64,000 nucleotides of DNA from Methylacidiphilum infernorum V4. Its GTDB lineage: Bacteria; Verrucomicrobiota; Verrucomicrobiia; Methylacidiphilales; Methylacidiphilaceae. The stretch lies in contig NC_010794.1 in assembly GCF_000019665.1 (NCBI RefSeq), forward strand, positions 248,001 through 312,000, in the 5' to 3' direction. Positions within the stretch are counted from its first letter, which is position 1. Every line of letters begins with the position of its first letter. This document shows positions 11,803 to 27,667 of the stretch, one piece after another. The notes under the pieces are model-generated. The model did not search any database. It worked only from the letters and a program-made list of their open reading frames with translations, and was not told where the DNA came from. The translations under genes and the position numbers were made by a program.

Positions 11803-12618
11803 GTGACATTGTTTGAGATTAAAAGCTTGTTATCTTCTAACCACCTTTCTCCAAGTAAGAAGTTGGGGCAGAATTTTCTCATCGATCAAAACTTGGCTAA
11901 ATTTATAGTAAGAGAGACCCTGGAGGGTGTACCTTTACCCCAGGAAATTTATGAAATTGGTCCCGGTCTTGGATCGTTGACCGAGTTTTTTTTGCAGCAA
12001 AATGTTTTCTTAAAGGCCATTGAAATAGATAGAGGATTTTGCAAGGTCTTGCTCGAAAGATTTAGTGCCAATCCTCGGTTTGAACTTATTCAAGCTAACG
12101 CTTTAGATTTTTCTTTTCCCCAATCGACCCATGGGAAAATCCTTGTAGGGAATCTTCCCTACACCATATCCAGCCCTTTATTGGCCAAGCTGGCTCTTCT
12201 TGCTGTTCCTTTCCCCAGAATGATCTTTACCCTGCAGCAGGAAGTCGCCTCAAGACTCATGGCAAAAACGCGAACGAAAGATTTTGGAGCACTCTCTGTT
12301 CTCATGCAGTATTTTTTTGAAATTAAGAAGATGAGAAAAGTTCCCAAAGAGGTGTTTTATCCTGTTCCAAAGATTGAATCGGCCGTTGTTTTCTTTGAAC
12401 CTAAAAATACGGCCTTTAGGATGGATGCCCCGGAGAAGTATTCTTTTTATGCTTTCGTCAGAAGATGCTTTTCTCAGCGTAGAAAAAAGCTTGGGAAAAT
12501 TTTGCATATCCCCTTAGACCACAGACCGGATGAAATCCCTCCTGAATGCTGGGCAAATCTATGGATGGAATTAAAAGATTCCCGCATGGAAAAAAGCGGG
12601 GGTAGCTGTAAAAACTAA
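11803..12618 (+). CDS. rsmA: 16S rRNA dimethyladenosine transferase RsmA (KsgA)
   Basis: RsmA dimethylates two adjacent adenosines in helix 45 of 16S rRNA. The 271-residue protein shows KKLGQNFLIDQNLA, the SAM loop YEIGPGLGSLTEFFL and the catalytic NLPY motif in VGNLPYTISSPLL. The C-terminal domain carries the family pattern FYPVPKIESAVVFF. The start is GTG at 11803. It diverges from metE. Two tiny membrane-protein genes follow on the same strand within about 70 bases. Confidence 0.95.
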   Translation: MTLFEIKSLLSSNHLSPSKKLGQNFLIDQNLAKFIVRETLEGVPLPQEIYEIGPGLGSLTEFFLQQNVFLKAIEIDRGFCKVLLERFSANPRFELIQANALDFSFPQSTHGKILVGNLPYTISSPLLAKLALLAVPFPRMIFTLQQEVASRLMAKTRTKDFGALSVLMQYFFEIKKMRKVPKEVFYPVPKIESAVVFFEPKNTAFRMDAPEKYSFYAFVRRCFSQRRKKLGKILHIPLDHRPDEIPPECWANLWMELKDSRMEKSGGSCKN

Positions 12619-12684
12619 ACTTTCTTTTCTTTTCATTCTGTTTTGAAATGACAAAAAGGAAGGATTTTTGTCCAGGAATTTCCT

Positions 12685-12837
12685 ATGAACGAAGATAAAA
12701 CAGAAAAAAAAGATAATCCCCGGAAAAAAAAATCGGTGGCGGCTGAAAATATTTATTTTTTCATCATCATGTTCTTGATCGGGCTGCTCTTTATATTCTT
12801 GATATTCTCGGTAATAAGCAAAAAAAGCTACATGTAA
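12685..12837 (+). CDS. small single-pass membrane protein A (50 aa)
   Basis: This short gene encodes 50 residues starting at ATG 12685, with AGGA eight bases upstream. A lysine-rich, highly charged cytoplasmic-looking tail of about 22 residues precedes one strong membrane helix (YFFIIMFLIGLLFIFLIFSV) and a short basic end. The next gene encodes a protein nearly identical over the helix (IYF-I-MFLIGLLF-FLIFSVISK) but with a different tail. The pair therefore arose by tandem duplication and both copies stay open. No known family is recognised. The conserved helix argues for real proteins rather than chance frames. Confidence 0.7.
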   Translation: MNEDKTEKKDNPRKKKSVAAENIYFFIIMFLIGLLFIFLIFSVISKKSYM

Positions 12838-12880
12838 AAAAAAAGCTTTTTGTTTTCTTAAAATGACATAACATTAGCTT

Positions 12881-13030
12881 ATGTCATCCAAGGATCCTAA
12901 AAATCGTCCGAAAAAGACCCTGGCGCCGGGAGATATATATTTCCTTATTGTTATGTTTTTAATTGGCCTTCTGTTCCTGTTTCTCATTTTTTCCGTAATC
13001 AGCAAAAGCACCGTTCATGTTCACGGATAA
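12881..13030 (+). CDS. small single-pass membrane protein B (49 aa), paralogue of A
   Basis: The 49-residue product has a short basic N-terminus and then a membrane helix (IYFLIVMFLIGLLFLFLIFS). It ends in SKSTVHVHG. Over the helix it matches the preceding microprotein with mostly conservative changes, while the flanks differ freely, as expected for paralogues selected on the membrane segment. No clear ribosome site precedes the ATG at 12881; it may be translated from the same message as the first copy, 43 bases upstream. Function is unknown. Possible roles include a small subunit of a respiratory or other membrane complex. Confidence 0.65.
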   Translation: MSSKDPKNRPKKTLAPGDIYFLIVMFLIGLLFLFLIFSVISKSTVHVHG

Positions 13031-13118
13031 AAACTTTAAAGACTCCTTTAAGGAAGCTTGAGGCGGCCAAAAGTCTTTTGTTCCTTTTTTAATAGCTAAT
13101 CTTCTCTATTATCTTGTT

Positions 13119-14600
13119 ATGGATTTGGCTGCATCTGTGGATATAGGATCACATAGCTTTCATTTGATCGTCGTCCAAGTGGAAAATGGATCTATTCGAG
13201 CCATCGACAAAATAAGAGATCCTGTTTCTCTGGCTGCGGGACTAGATGAGAACAGGTATCTGAGCAAGGAATCCATATCTAGAGCCGTTAATTCCCTGCG
13301 GAAATTTGGAGAAAGGCTAAGATCGATTCCTCCCCATCGGGTCAGGGCTGTTGGAACGAATACTCTTCGCACGGCTAAAAACAGGGAAGAATTTATAAAA
13401 AGTGCAGAAGAAGCCTTGGGCCACCAGATCGATGTGATTTCAGGTCATGAAGAGGCTCGCTTGATTTATCTTGGTGTTGCTCATTCCATGGAAGACGATG
13501 GCCAAAAAAGGCTCGTCATTGATATCGGGGGGGGAAGCACAGAACTTATTCTAGGAGAAGGATTTTTACCTCGCCGAGTGGAGAGTCTTTATATCGGTTG
13601 TGTAAGCCTCTCCAAAGCCTTTTTTTCTGAAGGGATCATTGCGGCTTCAAGATTGAGAGATGCAGAAATAATGGCATTGCAAGAATTAGAGCCGATAGCG
13701 AACATTTTTAAAAAACAGGGTTGGCAGAGAACAATCGGCTCCAGTGGAACGATTTTAGCTATTCAGGATATTGTCATTGCCGAGGGCTGGTCAAAGAGTG
13801 GTATCAGTGCCTCCTCGTTAAAAAAATTAAGGAAATATCTTTTGTCGGCGGGAAGCATTGAACGGCTTTCTCTCAAAGGCGTTGATTATGATAGAAAACA
13901 GGTTTTACCGGGTGGGTTTGCTATCCTTTCCGCCATTTTTGAGGCTCTTTCCATTGAGAATATGGAGGTATCCTCTGGAGCTCTCCGGGAAGGGGTAATT
14001 TATGATTTGTTAGGTAGACTTTATCAGAAAGATATTCGAGAGAAGACTGTAAGAGAGCTCATGAACCGTTTTCAAGTCGATGAGGCTCAAGCAGAAAGAG
14101 TTCGAGCCGTTGCCTTATCCTTTTATGAAAAAGTTAAAAAGGATTGGAAGATTGAGGGAGATTTTCAAAGAAGAATACTTATTTGGGCTTCGCTTCTCCA
14201 CGAAATAGGCCTGTTTGTTTCTTATAGCCAGTATCACAAACATGGACAATACCTTTTAAATCACCTCGACATGCCGGGTTTTTCTTTAAGAGATCAACAA
14301 TGCCTTTCTTTTCTTGTTCGTTCTCATAGGCGAAAATTTCCTCTTGCCGAACTTCAGCTCTTGAGGTCTGAAGACAGAGAGACGATGCGAAAACTTGGCG
14401 TTCTATTGAGACTGGCCGTTTTGATTAATCGGGTGCGTAACGATGATGAAACTCCTCAAATAGATATAAAAGCGAGCTCCAGTCTTATCAAGCTTACTTT
14501 TCCCCAGGGTTGGCTAAAGGACCATCCCTTGACTGAAGCAGACTTGGCCACAGAGGCGCAATACTTGGTTAATGCAGGTTTCTTTTTGCAATATAGCTAA
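13119..14600 (+). CDS. exopolyphosphatase / guanosine pentaphosphatase family protein
   Basis: The 493-residue protein is a Ppx/GppA phosphatase of the actin-like ATPase fold, with a C-terminal HD-type helical domain. Visible motifs are SVDIGSHSFHLIVVQV at the N-terminus, RAVGTNTLRTAKN, the catalytic region ISGHEEARLIYLGVA, and the phosphate loop VIDIGGGSTELIL. The C-terminal part holds SLLHEIGLFVSYSQYHKHGQY, typical of the helical domain. It would hydrolyse polyphosphate or pppGpp; sequence alone does not separate Ppx from GppA. It is convergent with zwf, with only 11 bases between the stops. Confidence 0.9.
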   Translation: MDLAASVDIGSHSFHLIVVQVENGSIRAIDKIRDPVSLAAGLDENRYLSKESISRAVNSLRKFGERLRSIPPHRVRAVGTNTLRTAKNREEFIKSAEEALGHQIDVISGHEEARLIYLGVAHSMEDDGQKRLVIDIGGGSTELILGEGFLPRRVESLYIGCVSLSKAFFSEGIIAASRLRDAEIMALQELEPIANIFKKQGWQRTIGSSGTILAIQDIVIAEGWSKSGISASSLKKLRKYLLSAGSIERLSLKGVDYDRKQVLPGGFAILSAIFEALSIENMEVSSGALREGVIYDLLGRLYQKDIREKTVRELMNRFQVDEAQAERVRAVALSFYEKVKKDWKIEGDFQRRILIWASLLHEIGLFVSYSQYHKHGQYLLNHLDMPGFSLRDQQCLSFLVRSHRRKFPLAELQLLRSEDRETMRKLGVLLRLAVLINRVRNDDETPQIDIKASSSLIKLTFPQGWLKDHPLTEADLATEAQYLVNAGFFLQYS

Positions 14601-23694: not shown

Positions 23695-24581
23695 GGATTT
23701 TTTTTAACCTATAGTAGCGGTTTTGGAAGCGAAAGGGCTATTCTTTTTTCCATGCTGGGAGAAGACTCTTTGGTTGTCCCGAGCTGAGTAAAGAAAAAGA
23801 AGTTCAAAAAATACCACATCGACTATCTTTTCCCCGATAACTACGACTACAGGAGTCTTGAGTCTTGGGAAAGCGAGGAAGAAAGGAAGGAGTGGATGCA
23901 CCCTTCTTATTTTTTCTTCGGGAGGGAGAGTGATTCTATTTCTGATACCTTCATGTACGATCTTCAAACCGGCCTTTTCCACTGGTGCGAAGCTCTTATT
24001 CCGGTAGGGGGAGAATTTGTTTATCCGGACTTTTATTCTTTTTTGAAACACAAAGTGTTTGGTGAGATGAAAAAGGTGTTATGAGCGGGGAGGAAGGGGA
24101 AAAAAATAAAAAGGGCTTGTCCTATTTAAAGAATAAGGAGGACAAGCCAGGTGAGCGAGCCGGATGAAAGAAAACTGACTTATTTCTCTTATAAAATTGT
24201 AGAAGTAAAGCGCATTGATCCCAAGGAAGGAGATGAACTCGAAAAAAAGTTCAAGAATGAGGTTCATGGAGAATTCCTTAAGTACTTGGCAAAAAACAAG
24301 CGGGAGAACCTGCTTCAGTGGGGGTTCACGGAAGATCAAATTAAAAACGATTTTCTAAACGGCAAGCTTCCTCGATTTCAAGATGATAACCGTTGGAGCG
24401 TAGACCACCGGATCCCCCTATTCCTTTCGGGCAACCTCGAGGACCCCAACAGCTTTGAGAACCTCGATTTTCTTCCGAACCCGCTTCACGATCTCAAAAC
24501 AAAGCTCATCGAGAATAAGATTGATCGGGTACTAAATAAGCTAGCAGGAAAGTATGGATCCTACGGCTTTCCCAAAAATGG
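23695..24581 (+). repeat. direct repeat copy A of the SUKH/HNH locus
   Basis: This segment matches 25433-26316 over about 880 bases at high identity. It covers the end of a SUKH domain, a 66-base spacer with the ribosome site, and the first ~143 codons of the HNH gene. The offset is 1744 bases across the spacer and 1735 after a 9-base length difference near 24380. Homology stops abruptly at the palindrome at 24561-24592. Confidence 0.9.
23698..24084 (+). pseudogene. truncated SUKH (SMI1/KNR4) domain relic
   Basis: In frame with the stop at 24082-24084, this stretch translates to the C-terminal SUKH domain seen in the intact gene at 24710-25828. Examples are SSGFGSERAILFS against SNGFWTEGAILFS, followed by a long near-identical tail from SWESEEERKEWMHPS to the end. 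An internal TGA at 23785-23787 and the missing 5' half show it is dead. Only the second SUKH repeat is represented. It precedes the first HNH gene exactly as the intact copy precedes the second. Confidence 0.88.
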
Positions 24582-24690
24582 GAAAGCCGTAGCGTTGGCT
24601 CACTCTCCTTTTTCGCATTATTGCGAACCGAAAACCTTGAGGATAAAAACAACCGTTGACGGGTCTTGGAAAAGCACAAAGCTTAAATGA
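24151..24690 (+). CDS. truncated HNH-type nuclease protein (copy 1)
   Basis: The 179-residue product starts at GTG 24151 after a strong AAGGAGG site. Residues up to about 143 match the N-terminal domain of the longer protein at 25895. They include the HNH-like core: VDHRIPLFLSGNL, then NLDFLPNPLHDLKTKL, with Asp-His, Asn and a distal His. After the palindrome at 24561-24592 the sequence departs completely and ends 30-odd residues later. It thus keeps the nuclease core but lacks the glycine-zipper and coiled parts. The SUKH gene starts 19 bases downstream, the usual toxin-then-immunity order. Confidence 0.7.
   Translation: MSEPDERKLTYFSYKIVEVKRIDPKEGDELEKKFKNEVHGEFLKYLAKNKRENLLQWGFTEDQIKNDFLNGKLPRFQDDNRWSVDHRIPLFLSGNLEDPNSFENLDFLPNPLHDLKTKLIENKIDRVLNKLAGKYGSYGFPKNGKAVALAHSPFSHYCEPKTLRIKTTVDGSWKSTKLK
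24561..24592. repeat. perfect 14-bp inverted repeat with 4-base loop
   Basis: CTACGGCTTTCCCA and its exact reverse complement flank AAAA. It lies inside copy 1 of the HNH gene exactly where homology with copy 2 ends. Copy 2 has an imperfect version, with GGCTTTCCCA on the left and TGGTGAAGGC on the right. The perfect form looks like a template-switch product that templated the right arm from the left. It has no T-run, so a terminator role is unlikely. Confidence 0.85.
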
Positions 24691-24709
24691 AATAAAAAAG
24701 AGGTATAGG

Positions 24710-25828
24710 ATGAACAAAGAATCCAAGCTAAAAAACCTACTGGAGACCTTGAGGTCTCACCAAGTAGAGCATCCCTACATTGAATTTAACCCACCGGCTT
24801 CCCCTCAGGCCATAGAGGAGGCGGACAGAAAATGCCAGGAAAAATTCGGCATTGCTTTACCCCGGGATTACAAGGAACTTCTTGGCTACGCCAACGGGTT
24901 TAGCTTTGGCTACGGTTACTTTTATTTCGCTGCCGATCACCGCACCTCTTGGTGGCAAAATCGGTCTTCGAATGCCATTTTTTTCCTGCGGTCTGATATT
25001 TACCGGGACCTGTTGGAGGAAAACGAAGGAAATAGAGAATTTTATAAAGGAAGCAAATCGAAATGGAACAACCCGAACTTTCTTTTTTTGGGAAGGACTC
25101 AAGGCGGCAGTCGCGAATATATCTATGACGTGCGGCTGAAGTGCTACCGGCGTGGATGTCTTGAAGATCAAGAATACAATTTTACTCCATTTGATACGCA
25201 AGAAGAAAGGCTGTACGAGGATTTCTACTCGATGCTTGAGGGGGAGCTGGCCTATTTTTTTGAGGTGTTAGGGCCCGCTCCAAGGCTGCTTGAACCGAAA
25301 GTGATCCACTTATTGCAAACGGTAAGGAGAAGCCGGTTTACAAACGAACGGTCGTTTCTTCCCCCGGCAAGCCCACGGGCGATCGAGGAAGCCGACCGGC
25401 GTTTCAGGGAGGAGCTGGGAATTTCCCTACCCGATTTTTACAAGGCATTCTTAGCCTTTAGCAACGGGTTTTGGACTGAAGGAGCTATCCTTTTTTCCAT
25501 CCCGGACGAAGACTCTCCCGTGGTCGCGTTAAGAAAAGAACAAGAAGCTGAAAAGTACAACATAGAATATCTTTTCCCCTATAACTACGACTACAGGAGT
25601 CTTGAGTCTTGGGAAAGCGAGGAAGAAAGGAAGGAGTGGATGCACCCCTCTTATTTTTTCTTCGGGAGGGAGAGGGATTCTTTTTTTGATACCTTCATGT
25701 ACGATCTTCAAACCGGCCTTTTCCACTGGTGCGAAGCTCTTATTCCGGTAGGGGGAGAATTTGTTTATCCGGACTTTTACTCTCTTTTGAAACACAAAGT
25801 GTTTGGTGTGATGGAAGAGGTGTTATGA
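24710..25828 (+). CDS. double SUKH-domain (SMI1/KNR4) putative immunity protein
   Basis: The 372-residue protein consists of two SUKH repeats, each starting with PPASP(Q/R)AIEEADR and running through ALPRDYKELLGYANGF or SLPDFYKAFLAFSNGF. SUKH proteins are known immunity factors that bind and block nuclease toxins of polymorphic toxin systems, and some have other scaffold roles. AGAGG precedes the ATG at 24710. It lies between two HNH-type genes and downstream of a dead SUKH fragment. The immunity role is inferred from the family and neighbours. Confidence 0.82.
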   Translation: MNKESKLKNLLETLRSHQVEHPYIEFNPPASPQAIEEADRKCQEKFGIALPRDYKELLGYANGFSFGYGYFYFAADHRTSWWQNRSSNAIFFLRSDIYRDLLEENEGNREFYKGSKSKWNNPNFLFLGRTQGGSREYIYDVRLKCYRRGCLEDQEYNFTPFDTQEERLYEDFYSMLEGELAYFFEVLGPAPRLLEPKVIHLLQTVRRSRFTNERSFLPPASPRAIEEADRRFREELGISLPDFYKAFLAFSNGFWTEGAILFSIPDEDSPVVALRKEQEAEKYNIEYLFPYNYDYRSLESWESEEERKEWMHPSYFFFGRERDSFFDTFMYDLQTGLFHWCEALIPVGGEFVYPDFYSLLKHKVFGVMEEVL

Positions 25829-26316
25829 GCGGGGAAGAAGGGGAAAAAAATAAAAAGGGCTTGTCCTATTTAAAAAATAAGGAGGACAAGCCAGGTGAGC
25901 GAGCCGGATGAAAAAAAACTGACTTATTTCTCTTATAAAATTGTAGAAGTAAAGCGCATTGATCCCAAGGAAAGAGATGAACTCGAAAAAAAGTTCTATA
26001 ATGAGGTTCGTGGAGAATACCTTAAGTACTTGGCAAAAAATAAGCGGAAGAGCCTGCTTCAATGGGGGTTTACGGAAGATCAAATTAAAAAATATTTTCT
26101 AAACGGCAAGCTTCCAGAAAAGTGCGGTTGGGACGTAGACCACCGGATCCCCCTATTCCTTTCGGGTAACCTTGAGAACCCCAACAGCTTTGACAACCTC
26201 GATTTTCTTCCGAAGCCATTGCACGATCTCAAAACAAAGCTCATCGACAGTAAGATTGATCGGGTACTAAATAAGCTAGCAAGAAAGTATGGATCCTACG
26301 GCTTTCCCAAAAATGG
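25433..26316 (+). repeat. direct repeat copy B of the SUKH/HNH locus
   Basis: This is the intact counterpart of copy A (23695-24581). It holds the 3' end of the double-SUKH gene, the conserved 66-base spacer with AAGGAGG, and the 5' quarter of the full-length HNH gene. Differences from copy A are mostly point changes plus small indels, so the duplication is recent relative to the divergence outside it. Confidence 0.9.
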
Positions 26317-27667
26317 TGAAGGCATAAGGCTAGGCTATCCCTCTGTAACTTTTTCCTCCAAGGATCTTAGCAAAATAGAGAACATCGGTCAGGAGCTTTC
26401 CAAATATCCTTACGAAAAAATTGTTAAATCCACTCTGGGGAAATTAGAGAACGACGTTCAGAAGATAGCCAAAGGAGAAGAACGAACATTAGTTACCAAA
26501 TTTCTTAGAGAAAATGGCTACCTCAAGGGCTTGATGGGTTGGCTTGGAGGCCTGCTAGGCATTTGGGGTATTGGCCAAGAAGTACAGGCGGCGGTGAAGG
26601 AAGGCAGGGAGACGGGCAGGTGGGGTTTGGCCTTGGGCAAAGCGGGGGGAAGGATAGGCTTTTCTTACGGGGCGAGCATGCTCGGAGGGATAGGAGGAGC
26701 GGCCGTAGGATCGCTGTTCTTGCCGGGGATAGGAACGGTGGCCGGGGGTATCGTGGGAGGCCTCTTCGGGGGTTATGCCGGCCAACGGCTTTCGGAGCTA
26801 CTATCTGAAGGGATGGAAAAGGTTACTCTTTCGTCCCCTTTTCATCCCCGGGGTCTTGGGGAAGAAGCCCATGCCCAAGGGATCCAGGAAAGATTCAAGA
26901 GCCCAAGCCAAGAAAAGATCGAAAAGACTGCCTGGGAAAGAGAAAAACCGGCGGACAATCTCCTTGGAGAAGTAGCCAAAGGGGTGGAAAAGAAAATCGA
27001 GCAGCCGGAAAAAGAAGGCGGGCAAGAAGATCCTACTTTTGGCTTTGTTAAAAGGGCTACTGGGAAAAGCGCGGAGCTTGGAGTAAGCCTGGGGTTTCCC
27101 ACGGCTGTGACTCCTCTCCAGGCGGTGATGAGGTTAAAGGAAGAGTTGGGGGGAGGAAGAAAGGAAGGGAAAAGACTTGAGCTGGATCGGTTGGATGGCT
27201 GTGGTCTTCTCCAGGCGGAGGGAAGGAAGCTAGCCGATCTAAAAACGATCGAAAAGACCAAGGCGGCAGCCAAGCAAAGGCTTGAGCAGGCGGTCCTTTC
27301 TGCCTCGGACCCAGAGAAAATGGACCATGAAAAACTAAAGGCTTTCCTGGAAAAAAACAACAAGAGGATAAGGGATAAAGACTGGAGGGGGTTGGCCCAA
27401 AGGATAGAAGAGGTGGTGGAGCAAAAGAAAACCGAGGGCATACTGGCTTACTGGAACCTGCCCGGGATAGGAAAAGGACCGCTTTTCCCCGGTTCCTTTT
27501 GGCAGAAGGCCTGTGAGGCAAAAAAGAGGGTAGAAGAGCTAGAAAAACAAAGGGAAGAAGCTCCCCTTTTTAAGGCTGGAGGATTGACCCCAAATCCCTT
27601 CCCCGGCCTGTACCATTCCCCTACCCTAGAACTGGAACAAAAGAAGATTCGGGATAAACAGCGCTAA
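25895..27667 (+). CDS. HNH-nuclease plus glycine-zipper protein, putative effector
   Basis: The 590-residue product starts at GTG 25895 after AAGGAGG. An N-terminal domain (residues 1-140) holds the HNH-like motif: Asp82-His83 in VDHRIPLFL, Asn101 and His110 in PLHDLKTKL. Residues 248-297 form a glycine-zipper membrane segment (MLGGIGGAAVGSLFLPGIG and TVAGGIVGGLFGGYAG). The C-terminal half is charged, with coiled-coil-like Lys/Glu-rich stretches and a final Pro-rich segment. Glycine zippers are common in effectors that insert in membranes. The nuclease at the N-terminus is the reverse of the usual C-terminal toxin tip. Function is inferred, not shown. Confidence 0.65.
   Translation: MSEPDEKKLTYFSYKIVEVKRIDPKERDELEKKFYNEVRGEYLKYLAKNKRKSLLQWGFTEDQIKKYFLNGKLPEKCGWDVDHRIPLFLSGNLENPNSFDNLDFLPKPLHDLKTKLIDSKIDRVLNKLARKYGSYGFPKNGEGIRLGYPSVTFSSKDLSKIENIGQELSKYPYEKIVKSTLGKLENDVQKIAKGEERTLVTKFLRENGYLKGLMGWLGGLLGIWGIGQEVQAAVKEGRETGRWGLALGKAGGRIGFSYGASMLGGIGGAAVGSLFLPGIGTVAGGIVGGLFGGYAGQRLSELLSEGMEKVTLSSPFHPRGLGEEAHAQGIQERFKSPSQEKIEKTAWEREKPADNLLGEVAKGVEKKIEQPEKEGGQEDPTFGFVKRATGKSAELGVSLGFPTAVTPLQAVMRLKEELGGGRKEGKRLELDRLDGCGLLQAEGRKLADLKTIEKTKAAAKQRLEQAVLSASDPEKMDHEKLKAFLEKNNKRIRDKDWRGLAQRIEEVVEQKKTEGILAYWNLPGIGKGPLFPGSFWQKACEAKKRVEELEKQREEAPLFKAGGLTPNPFPGLYHSPTLELEQKKIRDKQR

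Follow-up and report, generated by a model that had tools for sequence, protein, structure and literature searches.

Paired single-pass membrane microproteins downstream of rsmA in Methylacidiphilum as possible helper subunits of a membrane complex

Introduction

The CydX-type microproteins of a membrane oxidase are short helper subunits with a single membrane pass. The type I toxins Ldr and Hok are also short hydrophobic proteins, which occur in tandem copies and have a structured start region. For the copper membrane monooxygenases, the sections of PMC10030591 available to us describe AmoX, AmoY, and AmoZ as extra small helical subunits of the archaeal ammonia monooxygenase, and an excerpt of PMC6688271 describes PmoD as a copper-binding membrane protein of methanotrophs. 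In an excerpt of PMC6189053, the activity of the isolated methane-oxidising enzyme, pMMO, is reported as below that of whole cells.

Here, we analyse 2 adjacent genes of about 50 codons, ORF A and ORF B, in a 64,000-nucleotide stretch (hereafter, the window) of the genome of Methylacidiphilum infernorum V4, which consists of one contig of 2,287,145 bases, the length published for the chromosome (PMC2474590).

Results

Two adjacent ORFs with a shared transmembrane helix

ORF A (12685..12837, plus strand, 50 residues, ATG start) and ORF B (12881..13030, plus strand, 49 residues, ATG start) are located between rsmA/ksgA (11803..12618, plus strand; TIGR00755, E = 9.1e-64; PF00398, E = 4.9e-47) and a gene encoding a Ppx/GppA phosphatase (13119..14600, plus strand; PF02541, E = 4.4e-81). 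These positions agree exactly with the first-pass annotation, which had placed 2 adjacent frames of about 50 residues after rsmA. Both proteins have the same layout: a short polar N-terminal flank with lysines or arginines (lysine-rich in A, K/R-containing in B), followed by one hydrophobic transmembrane helix and a short tail. The helix cores share 21 of 25 residues (84%), and the tails are KKSYM in A and STVHVHG in B (C-terminal ends SKKSYM and SKSTVHVHG, respectively); the description of a nearly identical helix with different flanks is therefore accurate. The AlphaFold2 model of ORF B is a single helix (residues 16–47) with a confident middle, the mean pLDDT being 95 for the block of residues 21–30 and 91 for the block of residues 31–40. 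According to the positive-inside rule, a positively charged flank stays cytoplasmic. On this rule, A and B should be oriented N-in and C-out, with the Lys/Arg-containing N flank in the cytoplasm and the tail in the periplasm.

Neither protein matched a Pfam-A or NCBIfam model near any curated cut-off. The best match, to Synaptobrevin (E = 0.067), is taken as one of transmembrane composition, and a sequence profile search of the PDB gave nothing useful (best E = 0.041, to a Pep12p fragment). The proposal that the pair belongs to no known family is thus supported for Pfam-A, NCBIfam, and PDB sequences. CydX, CcoQ, and other oxidase small subunits in Pfam or NCBIfam were considered as identities of A and B and rejected, a match to their family models being absent. 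In the literature searched, which was read in part, no paper was recognised as describing the 2 genes.

In a separate region of the window (24151–27667), a double SUKH/SMI1-domain protein (PF09346, E = 1.3e-13) is encoded between 2 related proteins that share a similar 'VDHRIPLFLSGN' stretch. These 2 proteins are HNH-nuclease-like by eye and gave no Pfam hit, and the region looks like a bacterial toxin/immunity cluster.

Conservation, duplication, and selection

A search with ORF B covered 60 genomes, that of V4 included. In all 5 Methylacidiphilum genomes, A and B are both intact, adjacent, in the same order, and at one site. One relative, which we designate C and whose tail ends in TVNIHGH, is present in all 7 genomes of the sister genus, Methylacidimicrobium included. 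When B was used as the single query sequence, these sister-genus copies were retrieved with E values of 1.9e-6 to 3.9e-3, and a 17-row profile retrieved them with E values of 5.9e-27 to 5.9e-22; because the profile itself was built with these copies, the single-sequence values are the independent ones. Stops or frameshifts in related genomes, which would have counted against the first-pass annotation, are absent from all 17 aligned members (the row of G006 is without its first residues and that of G009 has one extra N-end residue). Five helix residues are invariant across this alignment (F21, F32, L35, S38, and V39), and conservation shows no significant alpha-helical periodicity (543 of 5000 shuffles equally high).

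Comparison of the coding sequences revealed that (i) dN is far below dS between orthologs, with 0.051 versus 0.871 for full-length A (G000 and G002) and 0.119 versus 2.239 for B (G000 and G001); (ii) in V4, 4 of 5 comparable fourfold-degenerate sites differ between A and B, despite the 84% protein identity of the helix core; and (iii) within each Methylacidiphilum genome, 76–84% of core residues are kept between A and B, and 2–4 of 4–5 comparable fourfold-degenerate sites differ. Retention of the helix core while the fourfold-degenerate sites diverged indicates that the duplication is old, and under purifying selection, rather than recent. The dN/dS values and the A/B comparison together support the suggestion that selection has acted on the helix across the duplication.

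Chance ORFs or remnants without coding function would account for the missing family match and for the absence of an obvious Shine-Dalgarno sequence upstream of A or B by eye. That A and B are non-coding is, however, scarcely credible, since the sequence evidence (intact conservation and dN below dS) refutes it. We regard ORFs A and B as genuine, vertically inherited genes for predicted single-pass membrane microproteins.

In the sister genus, contig 82 of genome G010 carries an extra, degenerate microprotein copy (L075:5617-5764, minus strand) with one stop and a frame change; the same contig has resolvase-, ParA-, and transposase-like genes by eye.

Family members and distribution

The tail TVxxHG is common to B and the sister-genus copy C. 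B is the paralog closest to the single sister-genus copy, and A has lost this tail or replaced it. A third, dispersed relative, which we designate D, is a single-pass protein of 53–56 residues with the tail SSPYERMFHR and is present in all 5 Methylacidiphilum genomes (L033:9348-9518, minus strand; L034:7772-7939; L078:7697-7861; L079:8379-8540; L080:7453-7614). Profile–profile comparison of D with A, B, and C gave a probability of 95.8 and a score that was reached by 0 of 200 controls, in which columns were shuffled within the N flank, helix, and tail zones. At the 2 loci for which neighbours were listed, D is located between the gene of a Slp-type lipoprotein and one of glycosyltransferase type (assigned by Pfam on the V4 copies only).

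D was not found at E <= 0.1 in the 7 sister-genus genomes or in G005, the single genome of a third Methylacidiphilaceae genus. G005 also has no A, B, or C member at E <= 1, although it has one pmoC. Outside Methylacidiphilaceae, no convincing relative was found among the 387 Verrucomicrobiota genomes sampled. Weak matches in 6 of 47 same-order genomes (E = 0.02–0.09) and in 12 genomes of the wider search (E = 1.4e-4 to 0.0095) were taken as chance. None of 13 weak-match loci that were translated has the short layout of transmembrane helix plus tail; at least L052, L057, and L059 are out of register and thus uninformative, and for the same-order matches the translation check rests on L019. L058 and L060 resemble TolR/ExbD by eye. 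A pattern scan of GTDB r220, based on one peptide pattern that divergent relatives can escape, returned 160 stretches, of which 5 were confirmed, all from Methylacidiphilaceae: Methylacidiphilum sp. Yel, Methylacidimicrobium tartarophylax 4A, strain LP2A, and 2 Methylacidiphilaceae MAGs. As far as found, the family appears to be confined to methanotrophic Methylacidiphilaceae.

A hairpin at the start of ORF B

A 9-bp perfect stem with a 7-nt loop (12863..12887, plus strand) holds the ATG of ORF B inside its 3' arm. A stem of 9–10 bp covers the B start in all 5 Methylacidiphilum genomes, with one G-T pair in G003, and was equalled by chance in 0 to 9 of 300 shuffles. At the other gene starts in the window, a stem of at least 9 occurs in 2 of 31 cases, and none occurs at A. 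The hairpin alignment contains one pair changed on both sides and one G-U pair; covariation is not significant in this alignment, in which the G002 row is out of register (159 of 500 shuffles equally high). A DNA palindrome serving as a transcription-factor site was considered and rejected: the sequence pattern is matched in 4 of the 5 genomes (G003 has one G-T pair instead), and in these 4 it occurs at the B start and at no second site. Because of this single genomic occurrence, an RNA hairpin is preferred. The hairpin may be a candidate translational control element for B.

The hairpin, which covers the B start in all 5 genomes, is likewise compatible with type I toxin-like peptides, as are the small size, hydrophobicity, and single transmembrane helix of the proteins and the presence of tandem as well as dispersed copies. 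We nevertheless consider such a toxin very improbable. The genes occupy a fixed genomic site and are under strong purifying selection across the genus; a tblastn search of phage and plasmid records with B yielded no relative at E <= 0.01; the Rfam comparison found no antitoxin RNA at the locus, only a chance hit (E = 0.9); and 0 sigma-70-like sites were found on both strands of 12400–13300, a count obtained with a sigma-70-like model that may not fit this host. The promoter and terminator scan of the locus gave nothing useful.

Gene context and linkage to pmoCAB

The pair follows rsmA in V4 and G002, as seen in their gene lists, and in G001, G003, and G004, as seen in the alignment of upstream DNA. 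In V4 and G002, the pair is followed by a Ppx/GppA gene; in G001, G003, and G004, the DNA beyond the pair no longer aligns. In the sister genus, C follows the gene of an unrelated class I SAM-methyltransferase (Methyltransf_11 in the 2 copies tested) in all 7 genomes, with 80–117 bp between the matches in the 6 genomes measured. The stated position after rsmA is thus right and is specific to Methylacidiphilum; in the sister genus, the methyltransferase gene beside pmoCAB takes this place.

The unit of methyltransferase and C is divergent from pmoCAB in all 6 sister-genus genomes that could be tested (the seventh, G011, runs off its contig). The methyltransferase and pmoC matches are separated by 352–485 bases, and the distance from pmoC to the microprotein is 1.1–1.3 kb. 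Because a whole genus can inherit one arrangement, this linkage counts as one observation and probably reflects one inherited arrangement, not 6 events. In the 4 single-contig Methylacidiphilum genomes, the distance to the nearest pmoC is 90 kb to 1.06 Mb for A and B and 42–180 kb for D.

A small secreted-looking His-rich protein (EHHG...) is also conserved near pmoCAB in the sister genus (L031:10860-11276, minus strand; L032:13138-13614; L030:11618-12097, minus strand); the L031 copy, which was tested, gave no Pfam hit.

The methyltransferase gene immediately upstream of C raises the possibility that the microprotein is a membrane anchor or helper of this enzyme and that the two were later decoupled in Methylacidiphilum. 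The methyltransferase, however, has no close relative in Methylacidiphilum (partial-length matches of 26–34%, with E values of 2e-12 or weaker), and we consider such a role improbable.

A partner complex other than pMMO deserves more weight. The microproteins could be small regulators or assembly factors of, for example, a terminal oxidase, an efflux pump, or the Sec/YidC machinery, in a mode resembling that of CydX-like microproteins. The single transmembrane helix, the length of about 50 residues, the several paralogs per genome, and the missing pmo linkage in Methylacidiphilum are all consistent with such a function. By contrast, none of the small-subunit models in Pfam or NCBIfam is matched, and no gene of such a complex lies directly beside rsmA/ppx or beside the methyltransferase and pmo genes; COX1 occurs in the window no nearer than 4 kb downstream of B. 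We regard this alternative as quite possible, though with the odds against it.

Discussion

The suggestion that such microproteins act as regulators or as small subunits of membrane complexes is plausible. We propose that A and B are small helper subunits that would dock on a larger membrane complex, a reading to which we assign a probability of roughly 0.45. It draws on the intact conservation, dN below dS, the preserved helix with its invariant residues, the paralog D, the TVxxHG tail, the gene pair divergent from pmoC, and the restriction to one lineage. The co-located paralogs keep a near-identical helix and differ in their tails, which suggests a shared partner for the helix and a differentiating role for the tails. 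The conserved helix would pack against this complex. The paralogs would obtain separate positions or partners through their tails, which carry His in B and in C and read KKSYM in A and SSPYERMFHR in D.

For these helper subunits, pMMO is tentatively the best single candidate partner, because the single sister-genus copy sits in a 2-gene unit divergent from pmoCAB. Several observations count against this link: A, B, and D are distant from pmoC in Methylacidiphilum; G005 has pmoC and no member of the family; the helix periodicity is not significant; and A has no His tail. In its fullest form, the proposal is that the microproteins serve the verrucomicrobial pMMO as a small subunit that has escaped notice or as a helper in copper delivery. 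A single helix with a periplasmic His tail (HxHG or NIHGH) would dock on the PmoCAB trimer; duplication in Methylacidiphilum would have produced His-tailed B, tail-less A, and the third form D, and a hairpin would control the translation of B. Taken jointly, these elements make up a doubtful picture.

The analysis defines a small, selection-backed membrane microprotein family of acidophilic methanotrophs, which matches no entry of the family libraries searched and offers one lead to methane oxidation. If the pMMO link is true, the family would represent an additional subunit of the methane-oxidising enzyme; if it is false, the family is a modest addition to the lineage-specific microproteins.

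Among the systems known, the CydX-type proteins are short and single-pass, as are A and B; A and B differ in having no Pfam or NCBIfam match, and no bd oxidase gene was noted beside them. Ldr and Hok share with A and B the short, hydrophobic sequence, the tandem arrangement, and the structured start region, whereas A and B are at a fixed site and under strong selection, and the scans of their locus found no antitoxin RNA and no sigma-70-like promoter.

PmoD resembles the A/B family in having a single transmembrane helix, in its methanotroph-specific context, and in occurring either near or away from pmoCAB, but its helix is at the C-terminal end and 2 of the 4 PmoD proteins of Kam1 have a signal sequence, as given in the excerpt of PMC6688271. 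The PmoD-like proteins of the genomes examined here, assigned by position and appearance and without a Pfam hit, are about 230 residues long. A and B were rejected as PmoD: they lack the combination of a periplasmic copper-binding domain and a C-terminal transmembrane helix, because 49–50 residues with one helix leave no room for a soluble domain.

AmoX, AmoY, and AmoZ differ from A and B in size (9.6 kDa for AmoY and 12.8 kDa for AmoZ, both larger than A and B) and in that they co-migrate and cross-link with AmoABC in the sections of PMC10030591 available to us, whereas for A and B docking on a complex is a prediction. They resemble the A/B family in being small, mostly helical membrane proteins of one lineage only, with gene linkage to a copper membrane monooxygenase in some genomes only. 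AmoX, AmoY, and AmoZ establish that copper membrane monooxygenases can have small subunits specific to one lineage, and for A and B they would provide an analogy, not a membership.
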